A stretch of 25,212 nucleotides of DNA from contig JAUWYL010000020.1 in the NCBI GenBank assembly GCA_030615855.1, positions 1-25,212 on the forward strand. The letters run 5' to 3'. Source of the DNA: a bacterium. Its GTDB lineage: Bacteria > UBP18 > UBA7526. Positions 1,711 to 24,989 of the stretch are shown here, in pieces. Each line of letters opens with the position of its first letter. Positions within the stretch are counted from its first letter, which is position 1. Position numbers and translations under genes: made by a program. The notes beneath the pieces were generated by a model. That model was not told where the DNA came from, did no database searches, and saw only the letters and a list, made by a program, of their open reading frames with translations.

Positions 1711-1774
1711 GTGATCGGTGATCAGTGATCGGTTAAATCTCTTTTACTGTTCACAGTTCACAGTTCACGGTTCA
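1711..1774. repeat. Two heptamer arrays between rpmI and rplT
   Basis: 1711-1731 is three copies of GTGATCR (period 7). 1747-1774 is four copies of CNGTTCA (period 7). They fill almost the whole gap between two ribosomal protein genes that are usually tightly spaced. Confidence 0.85.
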
Positions 1775-1794
1775 CACTTAAGTGCTTATAGCCC

Positions 1795-1992
1795 TTATCC
1801 GTAGGGAATTAATCTCCTGATATTTTTCACATCGGCCTTATGAATGAGACCCGATTTCTTAAGGCTTCTCTTTCTCTTGGCGCTCTTCTTAGTCAGGATA
1901 TGGCTCTTAAAGGCCTTCTTTCTCTTAATCTTCCCCTTCTTGGTTAACCTGAACCTCTTGGCTGCTCCTCTTTTGGTCTTTATCTTAGGCAT
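1795..1992 (-). CDS. rpmI: Large ribosomal subunit protein bL35
   Basis: Small basic 50S subunit protein. The 65-residue length and the motifs [20 protein letters not shown] and [13 protein letters not shown], with C-terminal NIRRLIPYG, are typical. The ATG at 1992 has GAGGT five nt upstream. It lies between infC and rplT in the canonical order. Confidence 0.97.
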
Positions 1993-2015
1993 TCTAACCT
2001 CACTTTGTTCGGTTC

Positions 2016-2050
2016 GTTTACCGTTAACCGTTCACCGTGAACCGTAAACC
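2016..2050. repeat. Heptamer array GTNNACC x5 between infC and rpmI
   Basis: Five consecutive 7-bp units fit GTNNACC, and the middle two bases change in every copy. Outer and inner units are mutually complementary, so the array folds on itself. On its right it is followed by AAGTGCA-CAT-TGCACTT (2053-2069), a perfect 7-bp hairpin just past the infC stop codon. Confidence 0.9.
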
Positions 2051-2071
2051 AAAAGTGCACATTGCACTTCC

Positions 2072-2578
2072 CTATTTTGATTTAAGAACCATGGTCATGT
2101 TGTAGCCTGCTAATCTTGGGCTTATCTCCACTTCGGCAATCTCTTTTGTCTCTTCAATCAATCTATCAAGAAGGCGCCGGCCCAGCTCGGGATGGGATCT
2201 CTGTCTCCCTAGAAACATGATGGTTACTTTGACTTTATCTCCTCTTTCTAAGAATTTCACGGCAAGGCGTTTCTTTACCTGGTAATCATGCTCTCCAATC
2301 TTGATGCGCATCTTCACTTGTTTAATTTCATAGGTCTTCTGCCTCTTCCTCGCTTCTCGCAATTTTCTCTCTTGTTGGTATTTAAACTTTCCATAATCCA
2401 TTACCCGACAGACAGGGGGAGAAGCCTGGGGAGCGATTTCTATTAAGTCTAAAGCCTCTCTTCGGGCAATCTCCAGGGCCTTTCCTATATCCATAATTCC
2501 CAGCTGCTTACCCTCTTTACCAATCACCCTTACCTCTTTGGCCGAGATGGCCTCATTTACCCTCAACTCTTTTTTAAT
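2072..2578 (-). CDS. infC: Translation initiation factor IF-3, probable AUU start
   Basis: IF-3 binds the 30S subunit, blocks premature 50S joining and proofreads the start codon. The N-domain ([45 protein letters not shown]-like segment), the basic linker and the C-domain ending [11 protein letters not shown] are all present. I choose ATT at 2578 as start. It yields [11 protein letters not shown], the usual IF-3 N-terminus, and a strong GGAGGAGG lies 4-7 nt upstream. The nearest ordinary alternative is TTG at 2566, which is too far from that site. AUU is the known start of E. coli infC, where IF-3 represses its own translation by rejecting it. Length 168 residues with this start. Downstream of thrS, upstream of rpmI. 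Confidence 0.93.
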   Translation of the reverse strand: [168 protein letters not shown]

Positions 2579-2710
2579 CTTTCCTCCTCCTTACATTAAA
2601 AAATTTGGATGGCAGAAGCCATCCTTTTCATATCTAAACCCTACGCGCAGTCCTTTCATGAGGACGCGGTAAGGTGAGAAGCAGATAGCTTCCGCTTTAC
2701 TAAAATTTTA
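2579..2710 (-). promoter_or_regulatory. infC operon leader with stacked hairpins
   Basis: This is the 132 nt between the thrS stop and infC. Read on the minus strand it holds GCGGAAGC...GCTT...CCGC, then CGCGTCCT...AGGA...CGCG, then a GC hairpin with a U-run. The GAAGC/GCTTC segments of the first hairpin could also pair with the GGCTTCTGCC terminator stem, so alternative folds are possible. Such leaders upstream of infC-rpmI-rplT are known targets of bL20 autoregulation in Bacillus and E. coli. Whether this is one is inference. Confidence 0.55.
2598..2624 (-). terminator. Attenuator-like intrinsic terminator before infC
   Basis: On the minus strand, stem GGATGGC/GCCATCC (7 bp, loop TTCT) is followed by AAATTTTTT. 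It ends about 20 nt before the infC start, so full termination would silence infC-rpmI-rplT. That points to conditional attenuation rather than a simple end of the thrS transcript. Confidence 0.65.
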
Positions 2711-4429
2711 TCACTCTTTCTTTTTAATTGCAAGAGAAATTCTTCTGATGAATTTATCTATCTTTATCTCTCCCAAATCCTCTTCGCTTCTCAACCTCAA
2801 GGAGAGGGTATTATTCTTTACTTCTTTATCTCCGATAATGAGCATATAGGGGACCTTCTCTATCTGGGCCTCTCGGATCTTTTTGCCGATCTTCTCGTTC
2901 CGGCTGTCTAACTCCACCCTCAGATTCTCTTTTTCCAACCTCTCCTTTACTTTTGAAGCATACTTAATATGGCGGTCTGCTATAGGGAGTATCCTCACCT
3001 GAACTGGAGAAAGCCAGACAGGGAAGGCTCCTCCATAATGCTCAATCAAGACTCCTAAGAACCTCTCTATGCTTCCCAATAAGGCCCGATGAATCATGAC
3101 GCATCTGTGCTTCTTGCCGTCTCTTCCCGTATAGGTGAGGTCGAATTTCTCCGGGAAGTTGAAGTCTACCTGAATGGTAGAACACTGCCAGAGTCTCCCT
3201 AAGGCATCCGAGATCTGAATATCTATCTTCGGCCCGTAGAAGGCCCCCTCGCCAGGAGCAATCTCATATTCTAACTTACTTTCTTTTAGCGCTTCTTTTA
3301 ATGCCCTTGTAGCATGCTCCCAGTTTTTCTTACTTCCAATATAATCCTCTGGTCGGGTAGATAGAATGAGCTTATAACCAAAGCCAAAGGGCTGCAAGAT
3401 ATCTAAGGCAAAGGAGACCGCATCCTCTATTTCTTCCTTAAGTTGAGCCGGGGTACAGAAGATGTGGCCATCATCCTGGGTAAAGCCTCGGGCTCTCATC
3501 AGGCCATGCATTACTCCCGATCTTTCATGTCTGTAGACTGTTCCCAATTCAAAGTATCTTATAGGCAGGTCTTTATAACTTCTGGTCTTGCTCTTATAGA
3601 TCAGGACATGGCCCGGACAGTTCATGGGCCTTATGGCATACTCCTGCTTTTCTATCTTGAAGAAATACATTAATTCCCGATAGAAGTCATAGTGGCCGGA
3701 TCTCTTCCATAAGTCGATCTTATATATGTGAGGAGTAATGACCGATTGATAGCCTCTCTTTTTATGCTCCTCTTCTATAAAGTCCTCAATTATTCTTCTT
3801 AAGATAGCTCCCTTGGGATGGTAGATGATCAACCCTGCCCCAGCCTCATTATGGATGCTGAAGAGATCTAAAGATTTTCCTAATTTCCTGTGGTCCCTCT
3901 TCTTCGCCTCCTCAATATTCCGTAGATGTCTATCTAACTCTTCCTTACTAAAGAAAGCCGTGCCATATATCCTCTGGAGCATGGGATTGGTTTCTCTCCC
4001 CCTCCAGTAGGCGCCAGCAATAGAGGTGAGTTTAAAGACTTTTACTTCCCCGCTACTCTTCATATGGGGTCCTTTGCAGAGATCGACGAATTCTCCTGTA
4101 GCATAGAAACTTATTTTCTTTCCTTTGAGCCCTTTAAGAAGTTCTAACTTGAACCTCTCTTTATCCTTCTTTAATAACTTCTCTGCCTGACTTCCGGAAA
4201 GCATCCTCTTTTCGAAAGAAAGATCTTTATTTATTATCTCTCTCATCCTTTTCTCTATTCTCTTTAAATCCCCCGGAGTAAAGGGCTCTTTTTTTTCAAA
4301 GTCATAGTAGAAGCCGTCAGCAATTGCCGGGCCAATCCCCAACTTTACCTTGGGAAATAATTCTTTCACTGCTGCGGCCAAAATATGAGAAGTAGAATGT
4401 CTCAGAGTATCAAGGTTTCTTTTCGCCAT
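2711..4429 (-). CDS. thrS: Threonyl-tRNA synthetase lacking the N-terminal TGS domain
   Basis: Charges tRNA-Thr with threonine and hydrolyses Ser-tRNA-Thr. The protein is 572 residues, against about 640 for the common form, and begins directly at the editing domain. HSTSH (H11, H15) and CKGPH (C118, H122) form the intact editing site. The class II core follows: motif 2 around YRHERSG...RARGFTQDDGH, the zinc-site Cys in RPMNCPGH, motif 3 at HRALLGSIERF, and the anticodon-binding domain from WLSPVQVRILPI to the end. Start ATG 4429 has AGGAGC upstream. No in-frame upstream codons encode a TGS domain, because the preceding gene ends at 4467. Downstream of the FtsH-like gene and upstream of infC. 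Confidence 0.97.
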   Translation of the reverse strand: MAKRNLDTLRHSTSHILAAAVKELFPKVKLGIGPAIADGFYYDFEKKEPFTPGDLKRIEKRMREIINKDLSFEKRMLSGSQAEKLLKKDKERFKLELLKGLKGKKISFYATGEFVDLCKGPHMKSSGEVKVFKLTSIAGAYWRGRETNPMLQRIYGTAFFSKEELDRHLRNIEEAKKRDHRKLGKSLDLFSIHNEAGAGLIIYHPKGAILRRIIEDFIEEEHKKRGYQSVITPHIYKIDLWKRSGHYDFYRELMYFFKIEKQEYAIRPMNCPGHVLIYKSKTRSYKDLPIRYFELGTVYRHERSGVMHGLMRARGFTQDDGHIFCTPAQLKEEIEDAVSFALDILQPFGFGYKLILSTRPEDYIGSKKNWEHATRALKEALKESKLEYEIAPGEGAFYGPKIDIQISDALGRLWQCSTIQVDFNFPEKFDLTYTGRDGKKHRCVMIHRALLGSIERFLGVLIEHYGGAFPVWLSPVQVRILPIADRHIKYASKVKERLEKENLRVELDSRNEKIGKKIREAQIEKVPYMLIIGDKEVKNNTLSLRLRSEEDLGEIKIDKFIRRISLAIKKKE

Positions 4430-4466
4430 TTATTGCTCCTGGATAGTATATTTGTTATCCAGATTC

Positions 4467-4895
4467 TCATTTGCCTTCGAGTTTTTTGATTATTCTGTTA
4501 ACCTTCCTAGTTATTATTACAATACCAATCAGAATAATGATGGGAACAATAAACATGACAAAAAACATAACCAATCCCGGTCCCATCATAGGCCAACGAC
4601 TTCGTTCTTTCTCCTCTTCAATATTAACAGTAACCTTCTTCTCTTTAAGGAGTTCAATAAGGAGTGGATCATTGGCAGAATCGCTCTCATGATAACTATG
4701 GAATTGTTTTTTGTTGTCATTCTCAATATAAACACCTGTAATTCGAGAATATTTTCCCAAGTTTATAGATTCTACATTGCCTGCTTTTACCTTCTCGATT
4801 AATTCTTCATAGCGCAAATATTCTCCTTCCTCTGCTGATAAGAGAGTATAAGGAGTTAGAAGTAAAAGTGTCAAGACTATAAGAGTCACTTTCAT
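4467..4895 (-). CDS. Stand-alone FtsH N-terminal (extracytoplasmic) domain-like membrane protein
   Basis: 142 residues. Residues 1-20 are a signal/first membrane segment, and residues about 25-97 form an extracytoplasmic domain. Its pattern (YEELIEKVKAGNVESINLG, RITGVYIENDNKKQF, DPLLIELLKEKKVTVNIEE) is that of the FtsH N-terminal domain. Residues about 104-130 are a second membrane helix, and the protein stops after a short basic tail, RKVNRIIKKLEGK. Topology equals that of FtsH up to the point where the AAA+ ATPase and zinc protease would begin, but neither is present. A perfect AGGAGGT lies five nt upstream of the ATG, so it looks like a real gene rather than a remnant. Function is unknown. 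A modulator of FtsH hexamers is a guess. It sits between the tRNA cluster and thrS. Confidence 0.75.
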   Translation of the reverse strand: MKVTLIVLTLLLLTPYTLLSAEEGEYLRYEELIEKVKAGNVESINLGKYSRITGVYIENDNKKQFHSYHESDSANDPLLIELLKEKKVTVNIEEEKERSRWPMMGPGLVMFFVMFIVPIIILIGIVIITRKVNRIIKKLEGK

Positions 4896-4940
4896 GATTA
4901 CCTCCTTTGGAATTAATTTAAAACCTGTGATTATACAGAA

Positions 4941-5017
4941 TGGTGGGCGGTACTGGATTTGAACCAGTGACCTCCTGCGTGTCGAGCAGGCACTCTAACC
5001 AACTGAGCTAACCGCCC
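4941..5017 (-). tRNA. tRNA-Val (anticodon GAC)
   Basis: Cloverleaf on the minus strand: acceptor GGGCGGT/ACCGCCC, anticodon stem CCTGC/GCAGG, T-arm CTGG-TTCAAAT-CCAG, encoded CCA. The 7-nt loop TCGACAC gives anticodon GAC. Position 33 is C where U is almost universal. Last of five tRNAs. Confidence 0.92.
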
Positions 5018-5021
5018 ATAG

Positions 5022-5108
5022 TGCCGAGGGCCGGAGTCGAACCGGCACGCCCTTTAAAAGGACAAGGGATTTTAAGTCCCTTGCGTCTACCAATTCCGCC
5101 ACCCCGGC
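5022..5108 (-). tRNA. tRNA-Leu (anticodon UAA)
   Basis: Long variable arm, class II. Acceptor GCCGGGG/CCTCGGC, anticodon stem AGGGA/TCCCT with loop CTTAAAA giving TAA. The bases after discriminator A are not CCA, so CCA must be added enzymatically, unlike the other four tRNAs here. Confidence 0.94.
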
Positions 5109-5110
5109 AT

Positions 5111-5186
5111 TGGAGGCGCGGGTCGGACTCGAACCGACGAATCGCGGTTTTGCAGACCGCTCCCTTAGCCCCTTGGGTACCGCGCC
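5111..5186 (-). tRNA. tRNA-Cys (anticodon GCA)
   Basis: Acceptor GGCGCGG/CCGCGCC, anticodon stem GCGGT/ACCGC with loop CTGCAAA (GCA). The discriminator is U, the CysRS identity base, and CCA is encoded. Confidence 0.95.
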
Positions 5187-5190
5187 CTAT

Positions 5191-5266: not shown

Positions 5267-5274
5267 CTAACTAC

Positions 5275-5362
5275 AGTTCGGAGTACGCCCCGATTTCATC
5301 GGGGCTTGAGTTCGGAGTTAGGTGTATTGTTTTTCCAAACTCCGAACTATTAACTCCGAACT
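5275..5362. repeat. Inverted array AGTTCGGAGT between two tRNAs
   Basis: Two copies of AGTTCGGAGT (5275-5284, 5309-5318) face two copies of AACTCCGAACT (5338-5348, 5352-5362), with the perfect hairpin CCCCGATTTCATCGGGG (5288-5304) between. The whole can fold into a long stem separating tRNA-Leu(GAG) from the four-tRNA cluster. The CCGATTTCATCGG core also occurs at 11447-11459. Confidence 0.85.
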
Positions 5363-5377
5363 AAATTATCTGTGTTA

Positions 5378-5780: not shown

Positions 5781-6973
5781 CTTCCCCCCTTATTACTTAA
5801 AGCTACTACACCAGGAAGTTCTTTCCCTTCTAAGAATTCCAGAGAGGCTCCTCCACCAGTAGAGACATGGCTCATTCTATCCGTAAGACCTATCTTTGCG
5901 ATGGCTGCTACAGAATCCCCTCCCCCAACAATTGTGGTAGCCTTTGATTCTGCCAAGAGTTTAGCGATGGTAAATGTTCCCTTACTGAAAGGTTCGATCT
6001 CAAATATCCCCAGGGGGCCATTCCACAAGACAGTCCTTCCCTTATTTATGGCATGGCCGAACTTAGCAATGGTGGCTGGTCCGATGTCCACCGCCTGCCA
6101 GTCAGGAGGAATACCCAGGCGCTGAACGACCTTCACCTTAGCATCGGCTGCTACCCTGTCTGCTACCACATGGTCAATGGGAAGAAGAATGGGAATCCCC
6201 TTTCTTATGGCCTCGATCAGTATCTCCTTGGCAAGTTCTATCTTGTCCTCCTCTACTAATGACCTACCGATCTCTACCCCTCTGGCCTTAAAGAAGGTAT
6301 AGGCCATCCCTCCCCCAAAGATGAAGATGTCTGCCTTACCAAAAAGGTTCTTAATTACCCCGATCTTCGTCGATACCTTTGCCCCCCCTAGGATAACTAT
6401 GAAAGGCCTCTCAGGATTGGAGAGAACTTTTCCTAAATACTCAATCTCCTTCTTCAATAGATAGCCACAGGCAGAAGGAAGGAATTTAGTCACGCCTACG
6501 GTTGAGGCATGGGCTCGATGGGCGGTGCCAAAGGCATCGTTGATAAAGAAATCTGCCAGGCTGGCTAACTGCTTTGCAAATTCTGGGTCGTTTTCTTCTT
6601 CTTCTTTGTGAAATCTAAGGTTTTCTAAGAGTATTACCTCGCCCTCTCTCAATTCGGAGACTGCTTCCTTTACCTCTCCTCCAACGCAGTCATCGAGCTT
6701 CCTTATCCTCCTTTTAAGCAGTTCTTCCAATCTCTCTGCTACCGGAGTCAGGCGAAGCTCTTCTTTTATCTTTCCTTTCGGCCGCCCAAGATGGGAGATG
6801 AGAATGGCTTTCCCTCCCTGTTTCAGGACTCTCCTTATGCTTGGAAGGGAGGCCCTGATGCGGGTATCATCCGTGACCTTCCCCTTATCTAGGGGAACGT
6901 TGAAGTCCACCCGGATAAGGACTCTCTTGCCCTTTAAATCCAGATCATCGATGCTTAATTTATCCATTCTCAT
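5777..6973 (-). CDS. pgk: Phosphoglycerate kinase
   Basis: Transfers phosphate between 1,3-bisphosphoglycerate and ADP in glycolysis/gluconeogenesis. 398 residues, normal length. The N-domain substrate motifs RVDFNVPLD and ISHLGRPKG, the segment DAFGTAHRAHAST, GGAKVSTKIGV, the hinge WNGPLGIFE and the nucleotide loop GGGDSVAAI with STGGGASLEFLEGK are all seen. Two ATGs compete, at 6973 and 6967. Both have a purine-rich site (GGAG or GAGG), so the start is uncertain by two residues. Separated from gap by 163 bp of octamer arrays, and overlaps secG by 4 nt. Confidence 0.97.
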   Translation of the reverse strand: MRMDKLSIDDLDLKGKRVLIRVDFNVPLDKGKVTDDTRIRASLPSIRRVLKQGGKAILISHLGRPKGKIKEELRLTPVAERLEELLKRRIRKLDDCVGGEVKEAVSELREGEVILLENLRFHKEEEENDPEFAKQLASLADFFINDAFGTAHRAHASTVGVTKFLPSACGYLLKKEIEYLGKVLSNPERPFIVILGGAKVSTKIGVIKNLFGKADIFIFGGGMAYTFFKARGVEIGRSLVEEDKIELAKEILIEAIRKGIPILLPIDHVVADRVAADAKVKVVQRLGIPPDWQAVDIGPATIAKFGHAINKGRTVLWNGPLGIFEIEPFSKGTFTIAKLLAESKATTIVGGGDSVAAIAKIGLTDRMSHVSTGGGASLEFLEGKELPGVVALSNKGGR

Positions 6974-6990
6974 CCTCGCTCCACCCTAAC

Positions 6991-7112
6991 GGATATTAGG
7001 AAATTTGGATATCAGGATTTGGAAATTGGGATATCAGGAACGCCTTTGTCTCTAACCCCCCAGTCCCCTAATCACCAAATCCCAGTCACCCAATCACCCA
7101 ATTTCCCAAATT
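6991..7112. repeat. Inverted octamer arrays between gap and pgk
   Basis: 7073-7112 is five octamers of CCCAATYW type. 6991-7041 carries the complementary units (TTTGGATATCAGG, GGAAATTGGG). GGAAATTGGG and CCCAATTTCC are perfect complements, so the transcript would form a long imperfect hairpin between the gap stop and the pgk start. Confidence 0.85.
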
Positions 7113-7136
7113 TACTATTCTACCTAATCCAACTAA

Positions 7137-8153
<1,017 letters not shown>

Positions 8154-8183
8154 TTATACGTTAAAAGGTTGCGCAACTCGTTT

Positions 8184-8300
8184 TCAGATTATCAGAACAT
8201 CAGACTATCAGAATGAGAATTCAGGAATCAGATTTCAGATTCAATCTGACCTTCTGATAACTGACCCTCTCCATCTGATACTCTGGTAATCTGATATTCT
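8184..8300. repeat. Octamer array TCAGANNA and inverted partner in the gap leader
   Basis: 8184-8215 is four exact-period 8-bp units TCAGANNR. The stretch 8237-8300 holds complementary TCTGATA-type units. Together they form an imperfect inverted repeat in the presumed gap 5' UTR. Confidence 0.85.
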
Positions 8301-8350
8301 AATTATATGAGCAGCGTAACCGCAACCGAATGACTTCTCCTTAATTTATT

Positions 8351-9098: not shown

Positions 9099-9104
9099 AG
9101 TTAC

Positions 9105-9227: not shown

Positions 9228-9267
9228 AAGTAGGAGAGTAGCAAAGTAAGATAGTAGGAAAGTAGGA
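9228..9267 (+). repeat. Octamer array forming the lptF 5' UTR and ribosome binding site
   Basis: Five contiguous 8-bp units of type NAGTARGA. The last unit ends on the A of the lptF ATG. The fourth unit places AGGA at 9256-9259, seven nt before the start, so the array itself provides the Shine-Dalgarno sequence. Confidence 0.85.
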
Positions 9268-10367: not shown

Positions 10368-11440
10368 TGAAGATTCTGGATCGTTATTTAGCAAGAGAGC
10401 TCTTAAAGCCCTTCATCTTCTGTCTCTTGATCTTCACTGCTCTGATATTCATCGCCCAACTCTTTGAGGAACTGGACCATATACAGCGCTTGGGGTGGGG
10501 GGTGATGATTCGCTACTTGCTCTATCGCACCCCTTTCTTCCTGGCCCAGTTCGCACCAGTAACGGTGCTTCTCGCTGGGCTATGGTCTTTAGGAAACCTC
10601 TCCAAGAACTACGAACTCATCGCCATGAAGGCCGGAGGAATATCCTTCGGGCGTATCTTGGTTCCCATGTTAGCTTTAGCATTGGTTATCAGCTTCCTCA
10701 CCCTCATCCTGAATGAATCCATCATTCCTCCCCTCAACATGAAGGTCAAGAGGTTTGAACAGACCAGGATGGATGAGCGGCCAGAGTATGAGAGGAGAGA
10801 TAATGTCGCCTTCTATAGCCCGGACCATCAATACCTCATCTATATGAAGACCTTTGACGGAGAGAAGAGCCAGATGCGTCATATCCAGATTTTGGCCCGG
10901 CGCCCGGATGGTAGCTTAGCAAGGAGAATAGATGCCCAGAAGGGGCTATACAGTAATGGAGGCTGGTACTTCATTGAAGGGATAGAGAGGGAGTTCGATG
11001 TGCGAGGAGAGAATATCTTAAAGGAAGAGGGTTTCGAAGAGAAATATCTTCCCCTGGATGTTAAGCCAAGTGACTTCAGCCGGGAGATACAGAAGCCGGA
11101 GGAGTTGAACTTCATCCAGCTGGCAAGATATATTGCTCAGTCCAGAAGAGGGGGATATGATGTCCGGAGGTATTTGGTTGACCTCCATCTGAAGATCGCC
11201 TCACCCTTCGCTTGTATCATCATCCTCTTGGTGGGTGCTCCCCTGGCCATCTTTTCCCCAAGGAGTGGAAGACTGATCAGTTTCGGGATAGCCACCTTCA
11301 TCGGCTTCCTTTATTGGGGGGGGATGTCTGTCGGTCGCTCCTTAGGAAGGGTAGGGATTCTAACCCCGCTTCTTGCCGCCTGGGTGGCCAATTTTCTCTT
11401 CATTAGCCTAGGATTATATCTCCTACGCCGGGCGAGATAA
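10367..11440 (+). CDS. lptG: LPS export permease LptG (YjgP/YjgQ family)
   Basis: Partner half-permease to LptF. 357 residues with the same plan: MKILDRYLARELLKPF start, FEELDHIQRLGWG, helices to about 120, periplasmic domain with NVAFYSPDHQYLIYMKTFD, and three C-terminal helices with IILLVGAPLAI and a basic C-terminus LLRRAR. It shares one base with the lptF stop, so translation is coupled. Its TAA stop lies inside a dispersed hairpin repeat (ATAAGAACC). Confidence 0.92.
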   Translation: MKILDRYLARELLKPFIFCLLIFTALIFIAQLFEELDHIQRLGWGVMIRYLLYRTPFFLAQFAPVTVLLAGLWSLGNLSKNYELIAMKAGGISFGRILVPMLALALVISFLTLILNESIIPPLNMKVKRFEQTRMDERPEYERRDNVAFYSPDHQYLIYMKTFDGEKSQMRHIQILARRPDGSLARRIDAQKGLYSNGGWYFIEGIEREFDVRGENILKEEGFEEKYLPLDVKPSDFSREIQKPEELNFIQLARYIAQSRRGGYDVRRYLVDLHLKIASPFACIIILLVGAPLAIFSPRSGRLISFGIATFIGFLYWGGMSVGRSLGRVGILTPLLAAWVANFLFISLGLYLLRRAR

Positions 11441-11782
11441 GAACCTCCGATTTCATCGGAGAACCTTGTTTCTCGCTTTGCTCAAAATAAGAACCTGACT
11501 TCGTCAGAACCTTGTTTTGCTTATTGAAGTTCCGATATCTTAAAATAACGGCGCGCTTCGCTCTCCGTCGTCTTTTGCTTATTAAAGTTCCGATACCTTA
11601 AAATAAAAGACATTATTCTCAGATATTCCAGATAGGCACTCGTTTCACTCGTGCTCTATCTTCCTTCGGACAGCCCCTTTTATCAAAGAGGCTGGGTTCG
11701 TATCAGTTGAGCCCCGCACCTTAACCCGAAGGGTAAGGGGCGGTCGGAATTGAATTTATTCAAGTTCCGATACGATAAAAAA
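11441..11782. repeat. Repeat-filled convergent gap lptG/ahcY
   Basis: No gene seen in about 385 bp. It is a nest of hairpin repeats. 11437-11471 is a unit ATAAGAACC-(TCCGATTTCATCGGA)-GAACCTTGTTT. 11484-11545 is the full 62-nt element (copy B). 11573-11603 and 11754-11780 are partial copies of its GAAGTTCCGATAC part. Between them are CGGCGCGCTTCGCTC-like and CACTCGTTTCACTCG short repeats, plus an inverted pair around 11680-11745 (GCCCCGCACC...TAAGGGGCGG-like). Confidence 0.8.
11484..11545 (+). repeat. 62-nt dispersed hairpin repeat, copy B
   Basis: Reads AAAATAAGAACC, hairpin CTGACTTCGTCAG, GAACCTTGTTTT, CTTATTGAAGTTCCGAT, ending TTAAAA. 59 of 62 positions match the minus strand of 1219-1280. 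The three differences are transitions. Confidence 0.85.
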
Positions 11783-11811
11783 GGGGCGGCTCATTTAGAG
11801 CCGCCCCTTTT
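11783..11811. terminator. Bidirectional intrinsic terminator
   Basis: Perfect 10-bp stem GGGGCGGCTC/GAGCCGCCCC with loop ATTTA, preceded by A6 and followed by T4. It can terminate lptF-lptG from the left and the ahcY operon from the right. Confidence 0.92.
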
Positions 11812-11825
11812 CACTTTTGGGATAT

Positions 11826-13082
11826 TTAGGTTCCTAACTCCCAGGATTTGAGGTATATCTCTTGTGCTTTTGTCAGTCTATCTACCCTTATTCCTAAGGA
11901 TCTGAGCTTCAACCTGGCGATCCTTTCGTCTATCTGGGAAGGAACGGGGTATACCCTCTTCTCCAATCCTCCCTTCATCTTTGATAGATAGGCAGCAGAT
12001 AAAGCCTGATTGGCAAAAGACATATCCATTACCGTAGGAGGATGTCCCTCAGCACAGGCCAAATTCACCAGCCTTCCCTCTCCTAAGAGGTTGATTCGCT
12101 TCCCATTGGGAAGGAGATATTGGTCGATTAGACCCCTCATCCTTTTCTTTTTCTTGGCCACCCTTTTTAAAGCCGGGATATTGATCTCAACATTGAAGTG
12201 GCCGGCATTGGCAACAATCGCCCCGTCCTTCATTACCCTGAAGTGTCTCTTATCAATGAGGTTTATGTCCCCGCTTGCGGTGATAAAGATATCCCCTATC
12301 CCTGCCGCTTCAATCAGGGGCATCACCTGATAGCCATCCATACTTGCCTCCAGGGCCTTTAAGGGATCGACCTCAGTGATGATGACTTTTGCTCCCATAC
12401 CTCTGGCTCTCATAGCGATTCCCCTTCCACACCAGCCATAGCCACAGACCACAAAGTTACTCCCCGCCAGAAGCCTATTCGTTGCCCGTAAGATACCATC
12501 TATGGTTGACTGTCCCGTCCCATACCTATTATCAAAGAAGCGCTTCGTCCGGGCATCGTTTACGGCAATGATGGGATATCTCAATATTCCCCTATCTGCC
12601 ATGCTCTTTAATCTTATCACCCCGGTAGTGGTCTCCTCCGTTCCTCCGATAATACCACGGTGAACGGTGAACGGTGAACGGTGAACGGTAGCAACGAGAT
12701 CAGCTCCGTCATCCATAGTAATCTGAGGTTTGATATTTAGAACACTTCTAATATGCTGATAATAGGTTCTATTATCCTCTCCGTGAATGGCAAAGACGCT
12801 GATCCTGTCGTGTTTTACTAAGGAGGCCGCCACATCATCCTGGGTAGAGAGGGGATTGGAGGCACAGAGATAAGGGGTTGCTCCTCCGGCCTTCAGGGTC
12901 TGCATCAGGATAGCGGTCTCACTCGTCACATGGAGGCAGGCAGCGATTTGTAGGCCTTTGAAGGGCTTTTTCTTTATAAACTCTTTCTTAATGAGTCGTA
13001 AAACAGGCATCTCCCCGGCTGCCCATTCAATACGCTTCTTTCCTTTCTCTGCTAATTTAATCTTCTTAATATGGTATTTCAT
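11826..13082 (-). CDS. ahcY: S-adenosylhomocysteine hydrolase (adenosylhomocysteinase)
   Basis: Splits S-adenosylhomocysteine into adenosine and homocysteine using bound NAD+. 418 residues, short archaeal/Thermotoga-type ending ([10 protein letters not shown]) without the KPDHYRY tail of the long form. STQDDVAA (79-86), MDDGAD (123-128), GGTEETTTG (146-154), catalytic TKRFFDN (K180, D184) and NAD loop GYGWCGRG (214-221) are present. Residues about 131-142 ([11 protein letters not shown]) are encoded by four perfect GGTGAAC heptamers (plus strand 12659-12686). The same heptamer family occurs in gaps near rpmI. Start ATG overlaps the pfkB-family stop by 4 nt. Last gene of the metK-pfkB-ahcY run. 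Confidence 0.96.
12659..12690. repeat. Perfect heptamer array inside ahcY
   Basis: (GGTGAAC)x4 plus GGT. Because 7 is not a multiple of 3 the peptide repeats every 7 residues (TVHRSPF, then TVHR). It is the most regular array in the window although it lies in a coding region. Confidence 0.95.
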
Positions 13083-15956: not shown

Positions 15957-17008
15957 CCCTTGGCCAGCTCTTTCTTGAAATAGTCGATAGCCTCAACTGG
16001 GGTGGGGTCTATTCTGTTGAGGATAGCGAGGTAATAACTCACCCAATCCCCGAGATAGATGAGAGAGAAGAGGCGGGCGAGAAGGCTTTTTCCTTGAGAA
16101 TAGAGGAAGTCCAGGCCATGTGCCTTTCTCCTGATAATCTTAGAAGTAATCTCTATCCTCTTCTTTATTCTGGGAGAATCATACCTATCCCGCAGGATGA
16201 TGAGATAGCACCTCTTAAGGATTTCTGGCAGACATTTCCAGCCAACAATCTCATTGTGGCTTAATTCGGGGAAGGTATTGGAGAAGGCTAAGACCTTGCT
16301 ATTCTCAGATAGCTGTCCCTTCCAGCGCAGACCAACCGGGGAGAGGATGGGAGAGGTATAGATTAGAGGGAGATTCTTATGTAATTTAAGGGCTATTCTC
16401 TTCGCCTGATTGGAACCCACTTTTGATGAGAGAGAAAACTTTCTTTTCAAATCCTTGAGCAACCGAAGGGTCTCCTGGCATTCCCGCTTCTTACTTTTAA
16501 CTAGTCCCAGGCGCTCTAAGCTGATAAGTAAGGAGAAGAAGAGATAGCCTAAAGAGGCCCGGGGAGGAAGCCCAGAGGGTATAGAGACTACCGGAACCCC
16601 GTCTCTCTTGGCTAATCTGCCCAATCTTCCTCCGGTAGTGATGGCTATCATCTTCGCCTTCTTCTTTGCTGCCTCTCGATAGGCAGAGAGGGTTTCTTCT
16701 GTATTCCCCGAGTAACTGACAGAGGAGACCAGGGTTTTAGAGTCGACGAACTCTGGAAGGGAGTAATTCTTGTTGATCACCAAGGGGATTCTTAACTCTG
16801 GTTCTATCACGCTCTTCAATATCTCTCCCCCAATACCTGAGCCACCCATTCCACAGACCAGAATCTTGTCAATCTTCTTGTATGAAGGAAGAGAAGATTG
16901 AAGGGCTATCTCAATTGCTCGGGAGCATTGATCAGGAAAATCAGCCAAAAGATAGGCCATATCTTTCTTATCATACTTCTCAAGATCTTTTAGGTTATCA
17001 AGGTTCAT
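15953..17008 (-). CDS. Bifunctional phosphoglucose/phosphomannose isomerase family protein
   Basis: 351 residues. First SIS domain with LVCGMGGSGIGGEIL (residues about 50-64) and SVSYSGNTEETLSAYREA (about 95-112). C-terminal domain with LSHNEIVGWK, where a Glu/His pair is typical of the PGI/PMI family. Interconverts fructose-6-P with glucose-6-P and mannose-6-P in characterised members. No separate pgi is seen. The start codon and its AGGAGG-like site lie within a 12-nt sequence that pairs perfectly with a segment just after the ptsI stop, so translation may depend on ptsI translation. Overlaps the nucleotidyltransferase by 4 nt. Confidence 0.9.
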   Translation of the reverse strand: MNLDNLKDLEKYDKKDMAYLLADFPDQCSRAIEIALQSSLPSYKKIDKILVCGMGGSGIGGEILKSVIEPELRIPLVINKNYSLPEFVDSKTLVSSVSYSGNTEETLSAYREAAKKKAKMIAITTGGRLGRLAKRDGVPVVSIPSGLPPRASLGYLFFSLLISLERLGLVKSKKRECQETLRLLKDLKRKFSLSSKVGSNQAKRIALKLHKNLPLIYTSPILSPVGLRWKGQLSENSKVLAFSNTFPELSHNEIVGWKCLPEILKRCYLIILRDRYDSPRIKKRIEITSKIIRRKAHGLDFLYSQGKSLLARLFSLIYLGDWVSYYLAILNRIDPTPVEAIDYFKKELAKG

Positions 17009-17104
17009 CCCGCCCCTCCTTCTCTAAAATTATCAATGTATTTTTCCTATTTTTCATGTATTCTCACTTTTCCCATTAAACTAAATCGTATCGAGGGGCG
17101 GGAT
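17007..17104 (-). promoter_or_regulatory. Shine-Dalgarno-sequestering long-range stem, ptsI/isomerase gap
   Basis: On the minus strand ATCCCGCCCCTC (17104-17093), starting 7 nt after the ptsI stop codon, is the perfect complement of GAGGGGCGGGAT (17018-17007). The latter contains the downstream Shine-Dalgarno and the first two bases of the ATG. 74 AT-rich nt lie between. The same 12-mer in the same register recurs before lptB. Confidence 0.7.
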
Positions 17105-17111
17105 TCATCAT

Positions 17112-18857
17112 TTAAGTTACCGCTTCCGGCAAGATCTTCCTTGCCTTCTCTTTAAGGAGGGCTTCGATCTCTTGGGCAGTAGAAAGATTCAGAGCCTTTC
17201 TGGAGAGTTCTTCTGCCTCCTTTAGAGTGAGAGAGCGAACGACTTCTTTCACTTCAGGAATGACAATGGGGCTCATGCTTAATTCATCCAAACCTAGACC
17301 CAATAGGAGAGGAGTAAAGAGGGACTCTCCGGCCATCTCCCCACACATCCCCACCCAAATCCCTGCCTTATGTGCCCCATCAATGATTCTCTTCAAGAGG
17401 TGCAGTACCGCAGGATGTAGGGGCTGATAGAGATAGGCGATGTTCTCATTCACCCTATCGATGGCTAAGGCGTACTGAATGAGATCGTTGGTTCCAATAG
17501 AAAAGAAGTCCACCTCTTTAGCAATGGATTCACAGGTGAGGGCCGCAGAGGGAATCTCGATCATGGCTCCTACTTCTAAGTTTTTGTTAAAGGGAATTCC
17601 TTTCTTCTTAAGTTCTTCTTTAACTTCGCTCAATATCTGATTTGCTTTCTTCACCTCCTCAACCCCGGAGATCATGGGATACATGACTTTTAAATCCCCA
17701 TAGGGGCTGGCCCTTAGTATGGCCCGTAATTGATCCTTGAAGAGAGGGATATCTGCCAGGCAGAGCCTGATGGCCCTTAGGCCCAAGAAAGGGTTCATCT
17801 CTGGGGCGAGGTTGAGGTAGGATAAAAACTTATCTCCTCCCAGATCTAGGGTCCTGATGATTACTGGATGGGGAGAAAGCTTCTGGGCCACTTCCCTATA
17901 GGCCTTAAACTGCTCATCGATAGAGGGGAGATCATCCCTTCCCAGATGAAGAAATTCTGTACGATATAGCCCGATCCCCTCTCCCCCGTGCTCCTTGACA
18001 TATTTAATCTCATCCGGAACCTCAATATTTGCTGCTAAGATTATCCTATGGCCATCGAGCGTTTGGGCCGGAAGGTCCTTTAACTTAACTAACTCATGCT
18101 CGAAGACCTCAAAGGACTCCTTATCTTTCCTATATCTCTTTAGAGTCTTTTTATCTGGGGTTATAATCACCAACCCATGACTGCCATCCACAATCAGGGT
18201 ATCAAGCGCCTGGGCTTCTTGAGTGATATTCTTCAATCCCACTACGGCCGGGATCTCCAGAGCCCGGGCCATGATTGCCGTATGGGAGGTCTTGGTTCCC
18301 ATATCTGTGGCAAATCCGATCACCTTCTCCTTGTGCATGGATACCGTATCAGAAGGGGAGAGGTCGTGGGCTACGACGATGACCTCTTCCTTCAGGGTGG
18401 CCAGAGTCTCCCTCTCCTTGCCCAGAAGGTTCCTCAATATCCTCCTTTCCACATCCTTAATATCTACTGCCCTTCCTTTTAGGTAGGAGTCTTCCATGCT
18501 GCTGAAGGTCTCTCGGAAAGTCTCCAGGACCTGGGAAAGGATATACTCCACATTGATCAATTCCTCTTTCACCCCCTGAGTGACCTTCTTTATTAAATAG
18601 GGGTCTTTCAGGATCAAGAGGTGGGCATCAAAGATATAGGCCTCCTCCTTTCCCAATCTTTTAGCGACCTGGGCCCTTATCTCTTTGATCTCTTCCTCTG
18701 TTTTGGCCAGGGCTTCCTGGAAGCGTGAGATATTCTTAGAGACCATGTCTTTCCTGATGGGTCTCTTCTTTATCTCGAACTCCTCCTTATCCAGGAAGAA
18801 GACCTTTCCCACCATTACTCCGGGAGAAGCAGGAATCCCCTTCAACTCCTTCATCAT
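17112..18857 (-). CDS. ptsI: Phosphoenolpyruvate-protein phosphotransferase (PTS enzyme I)
   Basis: Transfers phosphate from PEP to HPr. 581 residues, typical length. N-terminal KGIPASPGVMVGK; phospho-His192 in GTKTSHTAIMARALEIPAVVG; PEP-binding GIGLYRTEFL, IRTLDLGGDK, FFSIGTNDLIQY and WVGMCGEMAG (active-site Cys) in the C-terminal barrel. Start ATG overlaps the HPr stop (ATGA). A second ATG follows immediately. No EIIA/B/C gene is in the window, so the pair may have a regulatory role or serve a permease elsewhere. Confidence 0.97.
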   Translation of the reverse strand: MMKELKGIPASPGVMVGKVFFLDKEEFEIKKRPIRKDMVSKNISRFQEALAKTEEEIKEIRAQVAKRLGKEEAYIFDAHLLILKDPYLIKKVTQGVKEELINVEYILSQVLETFRETFSSMEDSYLKGRAVDIKDVERRILRNLLGKERETLATLKEEVIVVAHDLSPSDTVSMHKEKVIGFATDMGTKTSHTAIMARALEIPAVVGLKNITQEAQALDTLIVDGSHGLVIITPDKKTLKRYRKDKESFEVFEHELVKLKDLPAQTLDGHRIILAANIEVPDEIKYVKEHGGEGIGLYRTEFLHLGRDDLPSIDEQFKAYREVAQKLSPHPVIIRTLDLGGDKFLSYLNLAPEMNPFLGLRAIRLCLADIPLFKDQLRAILRASPYGDLKVMYPMISGVEEVKKANQILSEVKEELKKKGIPFNKNLEVGAMIEIPSAALTCESIAKEVDFFSIGTNDLIQYALAIDRVNENIAYLYQPLHPAVLHLLKRIIDGAHKAGIWVGMCGEMAGESLFTPLLLGLGLDELSMSPIVIPEVKEVVRSLTLKEAEELSRKALNLSTAQEIEALLKEKARKILPEAVT

Positions 18858-19120: not shown

Positions 19121-19186
19121 ATCCCTCCTTTAAAATTTCTAAGTCAAAGAACTTTGTCTCGCTCCGCTCGCCAAAGGTTCCGGTAC

Positions 19187-19755: not shown

Positions 19756-19835
19756 GTTTACCAGTTGACCAGTTAACCAGTTTAAAACCAGCAAACCAGC
19801 GAACTGGCAAACAGGCAAACCGGCTAACAGGAAAA
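19756..19835. repeat. Ten-unit octamer array between lptB and hpf
   Basis: Exactly 80 bp in ten 8-bp units. The first are GTTNACCA, the last CNGGCNAA-like, with CCAGCRAA in the centre. The motif drifts gradually along the array. AACTGG and CCAGTT segments make it partly self-complementary. Confidence 0.9.
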
Positions 19836-19837
19836 CT

Positions 19838-20563: not shown

Positions 20564-20717
20564 CCCACCCCTCCTTTTGTATTCAAAACAGCAACCACGG
20601 ATTTCACAGATTTCCACGGATTAGTATTCTTTTTAAAAATCTGTTTAATCCGTCCAATCCGTGGTTTTATTAAAGTCTTCGAAGCTACAAGATTATCAAT
20701 TCCGTGAGGGGCGGGGT
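20562..20717 (-). promoter_or_regulatory. Shine-Dalgarno-sequestering long-range stem, lptA/lptB gap
   Basis: On the minus strand ACCCCGCCCCTC (20717-20706), directly after the lptA TGA, pairs with GAGGGGTGGGGT (20573-20562) in 12 bp with one G-U. The 3' arm contains the lptB Shine-Dalgarno side and the first two bases of GTG. 132 nt of spacer include a second hairpin (20595-20664). Confidence 0.7.
20595..20664. repeat. Inverted decamer/nonamer array CCACGGATTT in lptA/lptB gap
   Basis: Three decamers of CACRGATTTC type (20595-20624) face AATCCGTCC and AATCCGTGG (20647-20664). The outermost CCACGGATT and AATCCGTGG are perfect complements, giving a stem around an AT-rich loop. Confidence 0.88.
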
Positions 20718-21897: not shown

Positions 21898-22198
21898 TTT
21901 CTAGCGACCAACCAATGCCTAATAATTAATAACCAAACTGAGAATCTCCAATTTCCAATTCCTAATTTCCAATAAAATTTTAAATGTCAAATGCCAAAAA
22001 AAGAAATAAGTAGATCAGAGAATCAGAATATCAGTAGGAAGGGTATCAGAAGACCAGGGTATCAGGCTTTAAAGAAAGATTTTCTGATGTTCTGATATAC
22101 TGCATTCAGGGCATCGCGAAGAATTTAGCCAGCTTGTCTGGCGTCTATCCTGATATACTTTTTGAATTGTTAGAAATTGGATATTAGATATTAGAAAT
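21898..22198. repeat. Array-filled gap kdsC/lptC
   Basis: No gene. 21947-21974 is four heptamers of TCCAATT type. 22014-22069 has repeated ATCAGANN units (period 8, then about 15-16), with the inverted counterparts CTGATGTTCTGATA at 22083-22097. A hairpin GCCAG-CTTGT-CTGGC sits near 22128-22142, and TTAGAAATTGGATATTAGA repeats end the gap at the kdsC stop. Confidence 0.82.
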
Positions 22199-22711
22199 TT
22201 AATAAGTTTTTTTAGCCTTAAGAATTATATCTATCGCTTCTCTCACCGCTCCCCTTCCTCCAGAAGCCCGAGTAACATAGTGAACGATGTCTTTGATCTC
22301 TTTTACTCCATTTGCTGGAGCGAGGGCCAGGCCTGCCTTTCTTAAGGGAGGGATGTCCCCTAGATCATCGCCGATATAGGCCACTTCCTCATTCTTTAAA
22401 CCATATTTCTTTAAGAACTTATGATAAACTTCTATCTTAAGAGAGACCCCCTGATAGACTTCGCTTATTTTTAGCTCCTCTGCCCTTCTCTCCACTACTT
22501 TAGATTTTCGACCACTGACCAATGCTACGATCAGTCCTTTTTGTAAAGCAAGATTGATTCCCTGGCCATCCTGGACATAAAAATTCTTTAATTCCTCTCC
22601 CTTGCTCCCTAAAATAATGCGACCATCTGTCAGTACTCCATCAACATCCATAATGAGCATCTTTATTCTTCTTGCTCTTTCCCGTATCTTTTGCGATATT
22701 TTCTTCTCCAT
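22199..22711 (-). CDS. kdsC: 3-deoxy-D-manno-octulosonate 8-phosphate phosphatase KdsC
   Basis: Dephosphorylates Kdo-8-P in the Kdo pathway. 170 residues, HAD superfamily type C0 without a cap: MLIMDVDGVLTDGRI (Asp22 nucleophile, Asp24), VALVSGRKS, KYGLKNEEVAYIGDDLGDIPPLRKAGLALAPANG (acidic loop). The ATG at 22711 has AGGA seven nt upstream. Between kdsD and lptC in transcription order. Confidence 0.95.
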   Translation of the reverse strand: MEKKISQKIRERARRIKMLIMDVDGVLTDGRIILGSKGEELKNFYVQDGQGINLALQKGLIVALVSGRKSKVVERRAEELKISEVYQGVSLKIEVYHKFLKKYGLKNEEVAYIGDDLGDIPPLRKAGLALAPANGVKEIKDIVHYVTRASGGRGAVREAIDIILKAKKTY

Positions 22712-22725
22712 ATTTTATTCCTAAT

Positions 22726-22790
22726 ATTCGCGTAGATTCGCGTTTTGTTTATTGCGTTTTTGTCTAACAGTTCGCGTTTATTCGCGTTTA
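22726..22790. repeat. Decamer array ATTCGCGTTT at kdsD/kdsC boundary
   Basis: ATTCGCGTNN units at 22726-22745, a central GCGTTTTTGT part, and two perfect TTCGCGTTTA decamers at 22771-22790. The kdsD stop codon (TAA, minus 22790-22788) is part of the last unit. Confidence 0.9.
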
Positions 22791-23747
22791 GGTGATTCCT
22801 TCTTTCAAGAGGTCCCTTTCATCAACGATGCCTATGGGACAATTATCCTCATCCACTACTGGTATGTTATCAAACCCCTTCTCCTCCAAGATCCCCACTG
22901 CTTCCGTGGCCAGTTTATCCCTGGTAATAGTAGTGGGCTTCTTGGTCATAACGAGCGAGATCTTCTTTTCTAAAAGATCCTTATCCTTCTGCAATTTCCT
23001 TCGCAAATCTCCATCAGTAAAGAAACCTACTAACCTTCCTTCTCTATTAATAACGCTTACCGCCCCCAGTCTGGTGGAGGTCATGACGAGCAGAGCCTCT
23101 TTCACTGTCTTATCCTCATCTATCAAGGGATTCTCTTCTTCCTTTCTCATAATATCCTCAACCCGCAATAATAATTTCTTCCCCAAGGGTCCACCAGGAT
23201 GGAGCAGAGCAAAGTCACTCTCCTTAAATCCTTTTCTACTCAGGAGAGAGATGGCTAGGGCATCGCCTAAAGCTAACATGGCGGTAGTTGAGGCGGTGGG
23301 TACCAAGTTGAAGGGACAAGCCTCTCTCTTTACTTTGACATTCAATACCACATCAGACTCCTTGGCTAAAGAGGAATTCGGATTCCCAGTCAAGGTAATG
23401 AGCTTTAGTCTTAATCTCTTGACCAAGGGTAGAATTCTTTTTATCTCTTCCGTCTCCCCGCTATAGGATAAGGCGAGGATGATATCCTCTTTCATGACCA
23501 TCCCCATATCCCCATGCATCCCCTCTACCGGGTGGACGAAGAAGGCGCTTGTTCCGGTACTCGATAGGGTGCTGGCGATCTTTCTCCCAACGAGCCCGCT
23601 CTTTCCCATGCCCGTGACGATCACTCTTCCCTTACACCTACTGACTAGATCTACCGCTTGAGAGAAGTTATCATCCAATTGCTTCATCAAATTCTTAATG
23701 GCCTCTGACTCTATCTCCAATACCTTCTTGGCATCCTCAATACTCAT
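22788..23747 (-). CDS. kdsD: Arabinose-5-phosphate isomerase KdsD/KpsF
   Basis: Converts ribulose-5-P to arabinose-5-P, the first Kdo-specific step. SIS domain with VIVTGMGKSGLVGRKIASTLSSTGT and LSYSGETEEIKRILP, then two CBS domains (VEDIMRKEEENPLI...GFFTDGDLRRKL and VMTKKPTTITRD...GIVDERDLL). I place the start at the ATG at 23747 (MSIEDAKK, 319 residues) because AAGGAG lies six nt before it. The ATG five codons upstream (23762) lacks a site. The stop codon lies within a decamer array. Confidence 0.93.
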   Translation of the reverse strand: MSIEDAKKVLEIESEAIKNLMKQLDDNFSQAVDLVSRCKGRVIVTGMGKSGLVGRKIASTLSSTGTSAFFVHPVEGMHGDMGMVMKEDIILALSYSGETEEIKRILPLVKRLRLKLITLTGNPNSSLAKESDVVLNVKVKREACPFNLVPTASTTAMLALGDALAISLLSRKGFKESDFALLHPGGPLGKKLLLRVEDIMRKEEENPLIDEDKTVKEALLVMTSTRLGAVSVINREGRLVGFFTDGDLRRKLQKDKDLLEKKISLVMTKKPTTITRDKLATEAVGILEEKGFDNIPVVDEDNCPIGIVDERDLLKEGIT

Positions 23748-23820
23748 CCTACTCTCCTTCATTTTACATTGAACATTTTTGCTAACAGTTAATATTGGTT
23801 AATATTGGTTGCTTTCAAAT

Positions 23821-23921
23821 CGTCCCTCGTCCCTCATCCTTCACCAATCCACCCAATCCAACTAATCCAACTAATTTACTACCCACTTTCCCACTTTCTC
23901 ACTTTCTCACTTTCTCACTAT
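23821..23921. repeat. Successive heptamer, nonamer and octamer arrays, kdsA/kdsD gap
   Basis: Three arrays of different period side by side: CRTCCYT x3 (7 bp, 23821-23841), CYAATCCAM-type x4 (9 bp, 23844-23879), CYCACTTT x5 (8 bp, 23882-23921). TTAATATTGG is duplicated just left (about 23789-23808). The last array runs into kdsA and provides its stop codon. Confidence 0.92.
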
Positions 23922-24728
23922 CCTGTCTATTTCTTTCACCTCTTTTAAGAGTTTTGCTACTTCCTCTAGCCTCATCATGTTGGGACCATCGGATAACGCC
24001 TTATCTGGATCGGGATGGGCCTCAAGGAATAAGGCATCTACCCCACAGGCCACCGCTGCCCGAGCAAGATAGGGGATATAATCCCTATTTCCACCAGTTG
24101 CTATCTCCATTCCCCCGGGAAGTTGAACGCTATGTGTGGCATCGAAGACCACGGGATATCCCAAGGAACGCATGATGGGCAGGGATTTCATATCAACCAC
24201 TAAATTATTGTAGCCGAAGGTGGTTCCCCTCTCTGTTAATAAAATATTCCTATTCCCTACGGATTCAATCTTCTCAACGACATTCTTCACATCCCAGGGG
24301 GCTAAGAACTGACCCTTCTTGACATTCACCGGCTTTCCTGCCTTGGCCACTGCCAGAACGAAGTCTGTCTGGCGGCATAAGAAAGCCGGGATCTGTAAGA
24401 TATCTGCTATCTTACTGACCGCGGGCACCTGTTCTCTCTCATGGACATCGATTAAGAGGGAAATGTTCAACTCTTTTTTTATCTTTTCTAAGATTTCAAG
24501 ACCCTTTTTTGGGCCTGGGCCACGGTAGGACTTTATCGATGTCCGATTCGCCTTATCATAGGAGGATTTAAAGATAAAGGGCATTCTTAATTCGCTGGTA
24601 ATCTCTTTTAGTCTCCTTGCCGTTTGAAAGGTCTGCTCCCCTGTTTCGATAACACAGGGCCCAGCGATCAAAACCAGTGGATTATTTCCACCAATCCTGA
24701 TATTCCTTACCCTTACTTCCTTAACCAT
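23907..24728 (-). CDS. kdsA: Kdo-8-phosphate synthase, metal-dependent type
   Basis: Condenses PEP with arabinose-5-P. 273 residues. IAGPCVIETGEQ (Cys25), SSYDKANRTSIKSYRGPG, CRQTDFVLAVAKAGKPVNVKKGQFLAPWDVKNVVEK, ERGTTFGYNNLVVDMKSLPIM, DATHSVQLPGG, EAHPDPDKALSDG. Cys in the first motif, as in Aquifex, marks the metal-dependent class; E. coli KdsA has Asn there. The final codons (IVRK, TGA) are made from the CTCACTTT octamer array on the opposite strand. ATG 24728, GAGG six nt upstream. Confidence 0.97.
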   Translation of the reverse strand: MVKEVRVRNIRIGGNNPLVLIAGPCVIETGEQTFQTARRLKEITSELRMPFIFKSSYDKANRTSIKSYRGPGPKKGLEILEKIKKELNISLLIDVHEREQVPAVSKIADILQIPAFLCRQTDFVLAVAKAGKPVNVKKGQFLAPWDVKNVVEKIESVGNRNILLTERGTTFGYNNLVVDMKSLPIMRSLGYPVVFDATHSVQLPGGMEIATGGNRDYIPYLARAAVACGVDALFLEAHPDPDKALSDGPNMMRLEEVAKLLKEVKEIDRIVRK

Positions 24729-24751
24729 TTTTCCCCTCTCTTTCTCACTTC

Positions 24752-24989
24752 CATTTTACATTGAGCATTGAACAACGAACAATGAAATCTGAAACCTGTA
24801 GTGAAATTAGAAATCTGAAATCAGTATTCCGTTTTTACTACCAATCCACCTAATCCACCTAATCTACTATCTACTTTCTAACTTTCTAACTTTCCCACCT
24901 GCCCATCTGTTCACTTTCCCACTTTCCCACTTTCACATTTTGCATTGCTAATTTTGCATTTTTCATTGATCACCGATTACCGATTACTG
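24752..24989. repeat. Four arrays in the kdsB/kdsA gap
   Basis: CATTGAA-type heptamers x5 (24752-24786), CYAATCYAC nonamers x3 (24841-24867), CYMACTTT-type octamers x9 (24870-24941), and ATYACCG heptamers x3 (24969-24989). TGAAATCTGAAA-like units lie between. No gene seen in the roughly 255 bp. The last array contains the kdsB stop codon. Confidence 0.9.

Follow-up and report, generated by a model that had tools for sequence, protein, structure and literature searches.

Short facing repeat arrays between the genes of a UBP18 bacterium are probably the arms of small mobile hairpin elements related to PF05635-carrying elements

What are the short tandem arrays that lie between the genes of this bacterium, and how did they get there? 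The stretch of DNA analyzed here (the window) is an entire 25,212-bp contig, C25 (JAUWYL010000020.1), of a UBP18 genome (G000) that comprises 1.375 Mb in 45 contigs and is 94% complete. It carries ordinary housekeeping genes, and Rfam returned only tRNAs. Intergenic heptamer arrays have been on record for decades, first from cyanobacteria and then from several further groups, and we know of no account of their origin. The host here is not cyanobacterial: G000 and the related genomes compared with it (G001 and G002, same genus; G003 to G005, same family) form one family, separate from all other genomes compared. The arrays probably form the opposed arms of small, mobile, hairpin-like elements. 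One open reading frame (ORF) of the family PF05635 (23S rRNA intervening-sequence/four-helix-bundle protein) is found in the full-length relatives of these elements. The window copies would be ORF-less derivatives, similar to rRNA intervening sequences (IVSs) and located outside rRNA.

The arrays themselves were real. They were located with Tandem Repeats Finder (TRF), and significance was assessed for each stretch against shuffles of the same stretch. All 14 arrays listed in an earlier note on the window were periodic, at the period given there or a neighboring one. For 12 of them the observed periodicity was reached in 0 to 0.05% of shuffles; the two weaker ones, at 20595-20624 and 22726-22790, were equaled by 0.5% and 3.5% of shuffles, respectively. 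That list did not include two further arrays: the GGAGTTC pair at 5272-5372, whose arms face each other, and heptamers in frame within a gene at 12657-12689. Genome-wide, 20-bp segments with at least 16 matches at a given lag were counted (1.30 of 1.375 Mb of G000 scanned), with dinucleotide shuffles and length-scaled coding DNA as controls. Intergenic DNA contained 158, 132, 10, and 32 strong segments at lags 7, 8, 9, and 10, respectively, compared with 14.9, 6.3, 1.2, and 0.4 in coding DNA scaled to the intergenic length. An intergenic excess was found at lags 7, 8, and 10, lag 9 being weak, and it was not reproduced by shuffled intergenic DNA (0 to 0.3 segments at lags 7 to 10). Lags 3 to 6 gave only 0 to 2 strong intergenic segments, a profile unlike that of ordinary microsatellites. 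The frequent complementary partners and the shared grammar of a short unit, few copies, and a facing partner also held: 24 facing same-word pairs were found, against 9.1 ± 2.8 when words were shuffled among arrays. Two of the note's generalizations did not hold. An array in nearly every gap was claimed, and our detector found one in 233 of 570 gaps of at least 80 bp genome-wide (41%); the window gaps at 2567-2710, 11441-11825, 17009-17111, and 19121-19186 are free of arrays. A different motif in each gap was also claimed, and 14 of the 15 array- or repeat-bearing stretches of the window recur elsewhere in G000, with 2 to 50 hits each.

The arrays were strongly tied to PF05635. This profile gave 10 hits each in G000 and G002 and 8 each in G004 and G005, and it was not found in 14 control genomes. 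When the G000 and G002 loci were read by eye, facing arrays of the same word surrounded the PF05635 ORF in 13 of 13 (one of them, at a contig end, with one arm only), and the words varied from lineage to lineage. Read in the same way, 11 of 13 loci from other phyla and all five finished plasmids of cultured cyanobacteria that were read had this layout; its presence in finished plasmids means that it is not an assembly artifact of metagenome bins. In a scan of named genomes, PF05635 was found at 80 loci spread over about 29 phyla, one archaeal bin among them, and 77 of the loci were usable. A strong array was present in a 220-bp flank at 61 of these 77 loci, versus 38 of 288 control ORFs of the same loci, and the period was 7 in 112 of 119 flanks. 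A strict test, requiring arrays on both sides of the ORF with an equal period and words differing by no more than two mismatches after reverse complementation, was passed by 41 of 77 PF05635 loci versus 2 of 307 control ORFs (Fisher P = 3e-31), although the control ORFs were not all isolated genes and 3 of 79 isolated small G000 genes also passed. The word distance was 1.55 to the partner arm of the same element and 3.38 to the arms of other elements (0 of 2,000 permutations). The median arm length was 4.4 units, and on either side some 40 bp separated the arm from the domain. The 5' arm was purine rich with a CAG/AGT core (z, 9.2/7.3), a feature found separately in the host's own family and in other phyla.

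Related PF05635 proteins tended to retain their word (e.g., L146/L117/L174). In a protein tree of 106 columns, in which many forks were unresolved, 49 changes of phylum label were counted (shuffled mean, 56; lowest number possible, 28); this scatter across phyla is what the sequences of an often-transferred element would be expected to give. An Okeania genome gave 20 hits to PF05635, and one PF05635 arm had 53 matches dispersed over it. The solved homologue 2GSC matched the PF05635 profile at 8e-28, and 10 of 18 members showed a weak match to NCBIfam Avd. In genome G013 (e.g., L161 and L175), 19 PF05635-like hits were seen, many of them pairs of ORFs of half length, one on each strand and separated by a few hundred base pairs; this form may be palindromic or split. 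On plasmids of Anabaena sp. 90 and Pseudanabaena galeata (L347 and L350), a PF05635 element with its arms was located between cas6 and cas4, and published reports of 23S_rRNA_IVP near cas genes may concern the same hitchhiker.

The arrays of the window are as follows, in forward-strand coordinates.

1711-1776: heptamer arrays GTGATCG (1711-1733) and GTTCACA (1749-1776), by TRF; lag-7 identity 0.68, 0 of 2,000 shuffles; 10 other places in G000.
2016-2050: heptamer array CGTTAAC/CGTTTAC, by TRF and shuffles; 28 other places in G000.
5272-5372: GGAGTTC array facing ACTCCGA, the left arm enclosing a small GC-rich hairpin; copies elsewhere in G000.
6991-7128: facing period-8 arrays GGAAATTG ... CAATCACC, by TRF and genome copies; missing from the sister genome G002.
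8157-8330: outer facing pair GTTGCGCAACTCG ... GCGTAACCGCAACCG with the ATCAG element in its loop; the outer pair is common to G005, the inner element is not.
8184-8305: the ATCAG element, probably an ORF-less copy of a PF05635 element, with facing period-8 arms; 37 hits in G000.
9228-9267: period-8 array AAGTAGGA, immediately upstream of a start codon, by TRF and shuffles; 7 other places in G000.
12657-12689: perfect heptamer array ACGGTGA, 4.7 copies, in frame within an adenosylhomocysteinase-like coding sequence, by TRF.
19756-19836: facing period-8 arrays CCAGTTAA ... AACTGGCAAACAGGC, by TRF and shuffles; fold z, -2.3; short match to PF05635 element L170.
20590-20655: facing pair CACGGATTTCACAGATTT ... 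AATCTGTTTAATCCG; fold z, -4.6; 5 other places in G000.
21943-22199: heptamers AATTTCC ... TTAGAAA, facing each other as an outer pair that encloses an ATCAG-type element; copies elsewhere in G000; the full 302-bp gap is missing from G002.
22726-22790: period-10 array TTCGCGTTTA, weak against shuffles, yet with 10 dispersed copies.
23788-23923: chained arrays GTTAATATTG (period 10), TCGTCCC (7), ACCAATCCA (9), and CCCACTTT (8), by TRF and shuffles; 47 other hits.
24750-24987: chained arrays (periods 7, 9, 8, and 7) with words in common with 23843-23923, by TRF, shuffles, and genome copies; the entire gap is missing from G002.

Several of these arrays matched the arms of PF05635 elements elsewhere. 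Both arms of the stretch at 8181-8329 matched PF05635 element L172 of G004 at 89 to 95%. The 5' arms of L272 (also of G004) and L160 were matched by 2018-2050 (91% identity) and 22000-22065 (86% identity), respectively. Further matches linked 23884-23916 to the 5' arm of the PF05635 remnant L281, 23797-23812 to L273, and 8167-8183 to an arm of L148. ORF-carrying versions of the outer AGTAACC element exist (L283, L284, and L280), and a PF05635 remnant in G003 (L162) has arms of ACTCCGAACT, to be compared with the pair at 5272-5372. The PF05635 ORF was present in the full-length relatives and lacking in the window copies. As to folding, three window elements did far better than shuffles, one modestly better, and two no better; the first three were 8184-8305 (-49.1 kcal/mol; z, -7.2), 5272-5372 (-47.4 kcal/mol; z, -8.8), and 20590-20655 (z, -4.6), and 6991-7128 as a single strand had a z of -0.2. 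Tiny GC-rich hairpins (CGCCCCGATTTCATCGGGGCTTG and CGGCCTTCGGCCTTG) sit between GGAGTTC-arm units, both at 5272-5372 and in the G004 gap (L097) orthologous to 6973-7137.

The arrays were dispersed and differed between genomes as whole units. The ATCAG pair had more than 20 relatives in the genomes read, in which the order of individual unit variants was kept and the flanks were different; they were often nested within a second element, AGTAACCAGTAACCAGCGAACAGT ... ACTGTAAACTGGTTACTG. Such unit-by-unit identity across loci means that the element was copied in, since local slippage cannot yield it. Orthologous gaps of sister genomes held unrelated arrays or none, and in one such gap three different PF05635 elements were found in G000, G002, and G005 (by eye, from the flanking genes). 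Between G000 and G002, of which 1.30 and 0.53 Mb, respectively, were read, 89 clean indels of at least 25 bp were identified, 25 of them with arrays (gain versus loss not polarized by outgroups); two of the array-bearing indels were G002-specific insertions of 420 and 490 bp, each holding a PF05635 ORF. In the comparison of the same gaps among relatives, which the earlier note had proposed, whole elements were gained or lost. At 12657-12689, the array supplants native codons in G000, G003, G004, and G005 (with other units in G005), and the native codons are kept in G001 and G002.

How such an element might work can be proposed from these features. The full-length form consists of a 5' arm of about 4 to 6 units of 7 to 8 bp, purine rich with the CAG/AGT core on the coding strand, followed by about 40 bp, the PF05635 ORF, about 40 bp more, and a 3' arm that is the reverse complement of the same word; the window holds only ORF-less derivatives, often nested or chained. 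Most likely it operates like the 23S rRNA IVSs, with the arms pairing with each other. We infer that the arms fold, that the folded form is the one that moves, and that the protein binds it. The repeated units would be bound by the PF05635 ring, which is pentameric in the solved homologue, and a ring meeting 4 to 6 tandem units suggests, as a conjecture, a register of one unit per subunit. The bound ring might protect or deliver the folded nucleic acid, which host replication or repair would then copy into new gene boundaries, ORF-less copies being served in trans. With time the word would drift while the arms stay complementary, giving many words with one grammar.

Some observations weigh against mobile PF05635 hairpins as the source of the arrays. 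No uniform target-site duplication was found among the 25 array indels, in which there were only a few 5- to 8-bp cases (e.g., the 7-bp TGGGCAT). Compensatory double changes within the ATCAG family numbered 0 of 24 pairs, so that change of word with pairing kept was seen only between elements and in one case judged by eye (L143 versus L176). Locus L163, with one PF05635 hit, had no arrays. For many window arrays, the genomes read supplied no parent with an ORF, two of the window-to-PF05635 matches were only 16 to 20 nucleotides long, and the stretches 6994-7130 and 22022-22152 folded no better than shuffles. The strict detector passed only 15 of 35 elements of the host's own family and 41 of 77 others. 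Finally, we know of no catalytic activity for PF05635.

Other origins were weighed against the same evidence. According to the earlier note, and to a published guess as well, local slippage or template switching at hairpins gives rise to the array of each gap independently. The tandem units are indeed degenerate, the heptamer copy number of the Coxiella IVS is variable (PMC4990558), and a 7-nucleotide preference of polymerases has been suggested (PMC4692102). This process is largely refuted for the ATCAG element, whose units are identical one by one at distant loci, and it is also at odds with dispersed families, whole elements present or absent, PF05635-carrying relatives, the absence of periods 3 to 6, and the strong tie to one protein family. 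We consider it quite improbable as the origin of the arrays, although slippage may still alter copy number within arms. It is unlikely, too, that the arrays came first, as independent repeats or hot spots forming hairpin pairs, with PF05635 genes as chance passengers in their loops. The ORF is missing from most copies, elements nest in one another's loops, and several different elements can occupy one gap, as this explanation would allow. However, the association, in which some 40 bp lie between arm and domain, extends across about 29 phyla, the strand asymmetry follows the direction of the ORF, and the word tends to be retained among related proteins.

Regulatory sites or terminators under selection, as proposed for Geobacter metallireducens and Beggiatoaceae, would suit the position at gene boundaries and the folding of many arrays, and similar paired sites have been interpreted as sites of a global regulator (PMC2700814; PMC4679880). 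We regard this origin as very unlikely: the unrelated arrays, or none, in orthologous gaps of sister species imply no conserved site-specific function, and one array even lies within a gene (12657-12689). The arrays might instead be nonautonomous elements of a conventional transposase or of a system based on a reverse transcriptase or a REP-associated tyrosine transposase (RAYT; REP, repetitive extragenic palindrome), with PF05635 unrelated to mobility. Their size and inverted ends resemble those of miniature inverted-repeat transposable elements (MITEs), and a few possible target duplications of 5 to 8 bp exist. The arms are arrays, however, not simple terminal repeats, and the association with PF05635 holds across phyla, which makes this origin improbable. 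A Y1 transposase and a reverse transcriptase, the latter raised as an array maker in the earlier note, were rejected in that role, neither profile (PF01797 and PF00078) being found in G000 (94% complete).

Among known systems, the 23S rRNA IVSs with an S23p ORF (Coxiella and Leptospira) are the closest relatives of the PF05635 elements. They too are hairpin-forming insertions with a single PF05635 ORF, present here in the full-length relatives. Inverted ends that can pair into a stem are a further common trait, indicated here by the complementary arm words and by the fold scores of three window elements, although two elements do not fold. In Coxiella, tandem heptamers GACAGAT even precede the S23p ORF, their number varying between strains; the same paper describes 2GSC as a homopentamer torus and cites an older suggestion of a role for the IVS ORF in mobility (PMC4990558). 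In contrast, IVSs occupy rRNA helices 25/45, whereas the loci read here adjoin protein or tRNA genes, have arrays as both arms, and include many ORF-less copies. The short tandemly repeated repetitive (STRR) sequences of cyanobacteria, to which the earlier note aptly compared the arrays, and the GGGAATC/GGGGA(C/T)T repeats of Xanthomonas and Nostoc are likewise degenerate, dispersed intergenic heptamers, often in facing pairs, with 70 to 75 such pairs per Xanthomonas genome (PMC4692102). The PF05635 layout is also found in cyanobacteria, and Xanthomonas campestris encodes 2GSC. For the elements described here, words, periods of 7, 8, and 10, and ORF-carrying parents are demonstrated. Paired sites in G. 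metallireducens share the 3 to 5 tandem 7- to 8-mers, opposite-strand pairing, and variable distance, but they were interpreted as regulator sites, and no parent element was named (PMC2700814). MITEs, too, have inverted ends and are short, nonautonomous copies derived from a longer element; here the ends are repeat arrays, target duplication is inconsistent, and the parent carries PF05635 only and no transposase. Avd of the diversity-generating retroelements is a related pentameric four-helix bundle, but no reverse transcriptase was found in G000; nor was the Y1 transposase of REP/RAYT systems. A link between heptamer repeats and PF05635 was not found in the open-access literature (subscription papers and preprints were outside the search, and an earlier report is possible); within it, only the Coxiella IVS paper sets heptamers beside S23p (PMC4990558).

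The window also contains repeats of other kinds. A separate small element at 17008-17112, with CCCGCCCCTCC/GAGGGGCGGGA ends, is flanked by TTCAT duplications that include a start codon and is missing at the same site in G001, G004, and G005; G000 and G002 also differ in several GGTGCGGGG elements of similar type. Dispersed nonarray repeats at 1209-1284 and 11440-11826, also missing from the G002 gap, correspond to a 64-bp AAGAACCT...AACCTTGTT element and a 167-bp element at 11628-11782.

What is already known is the 23S rRNA IVS, including the Coxiella form with its heptamers; what is new is an element outside rRNA in many phyla, with facing word arrays as both arms and gaps populated by ORF-less copies. 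The published heptamer systems (STRRs, Xanthomonas/Nostoc, Geobacter, and the Beggiatoaceae TAACTGA repeats) look like these elements, a likeness tested for cyanobacteria only. More tentatively, and short of calling it probable, we suggest that PF05635 could be the hallmark of a large class of transposable elements that spans phyla and moves with no known transposase or reverse transcriptase. Its ring would read one 7- to 8-nucleotide word per subunit on the folded arms and carry ORF-less relatives; the heptamer and octamer repeats of these systems would be its footprints, and the 23S IVSs its rRNA branch.

For annotation, PF05635 genes beside cas genes may be hitchhikers, and the arms give rise to spurious predicted proteins. 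We know of no function for PF05635 proteins, and their tie to the arrays makes both the origin of the arrays and the role of the protein testable. The arrangement might account for heptamer repeats that have long been a puzzle in cyanobacteria and other bacteria.

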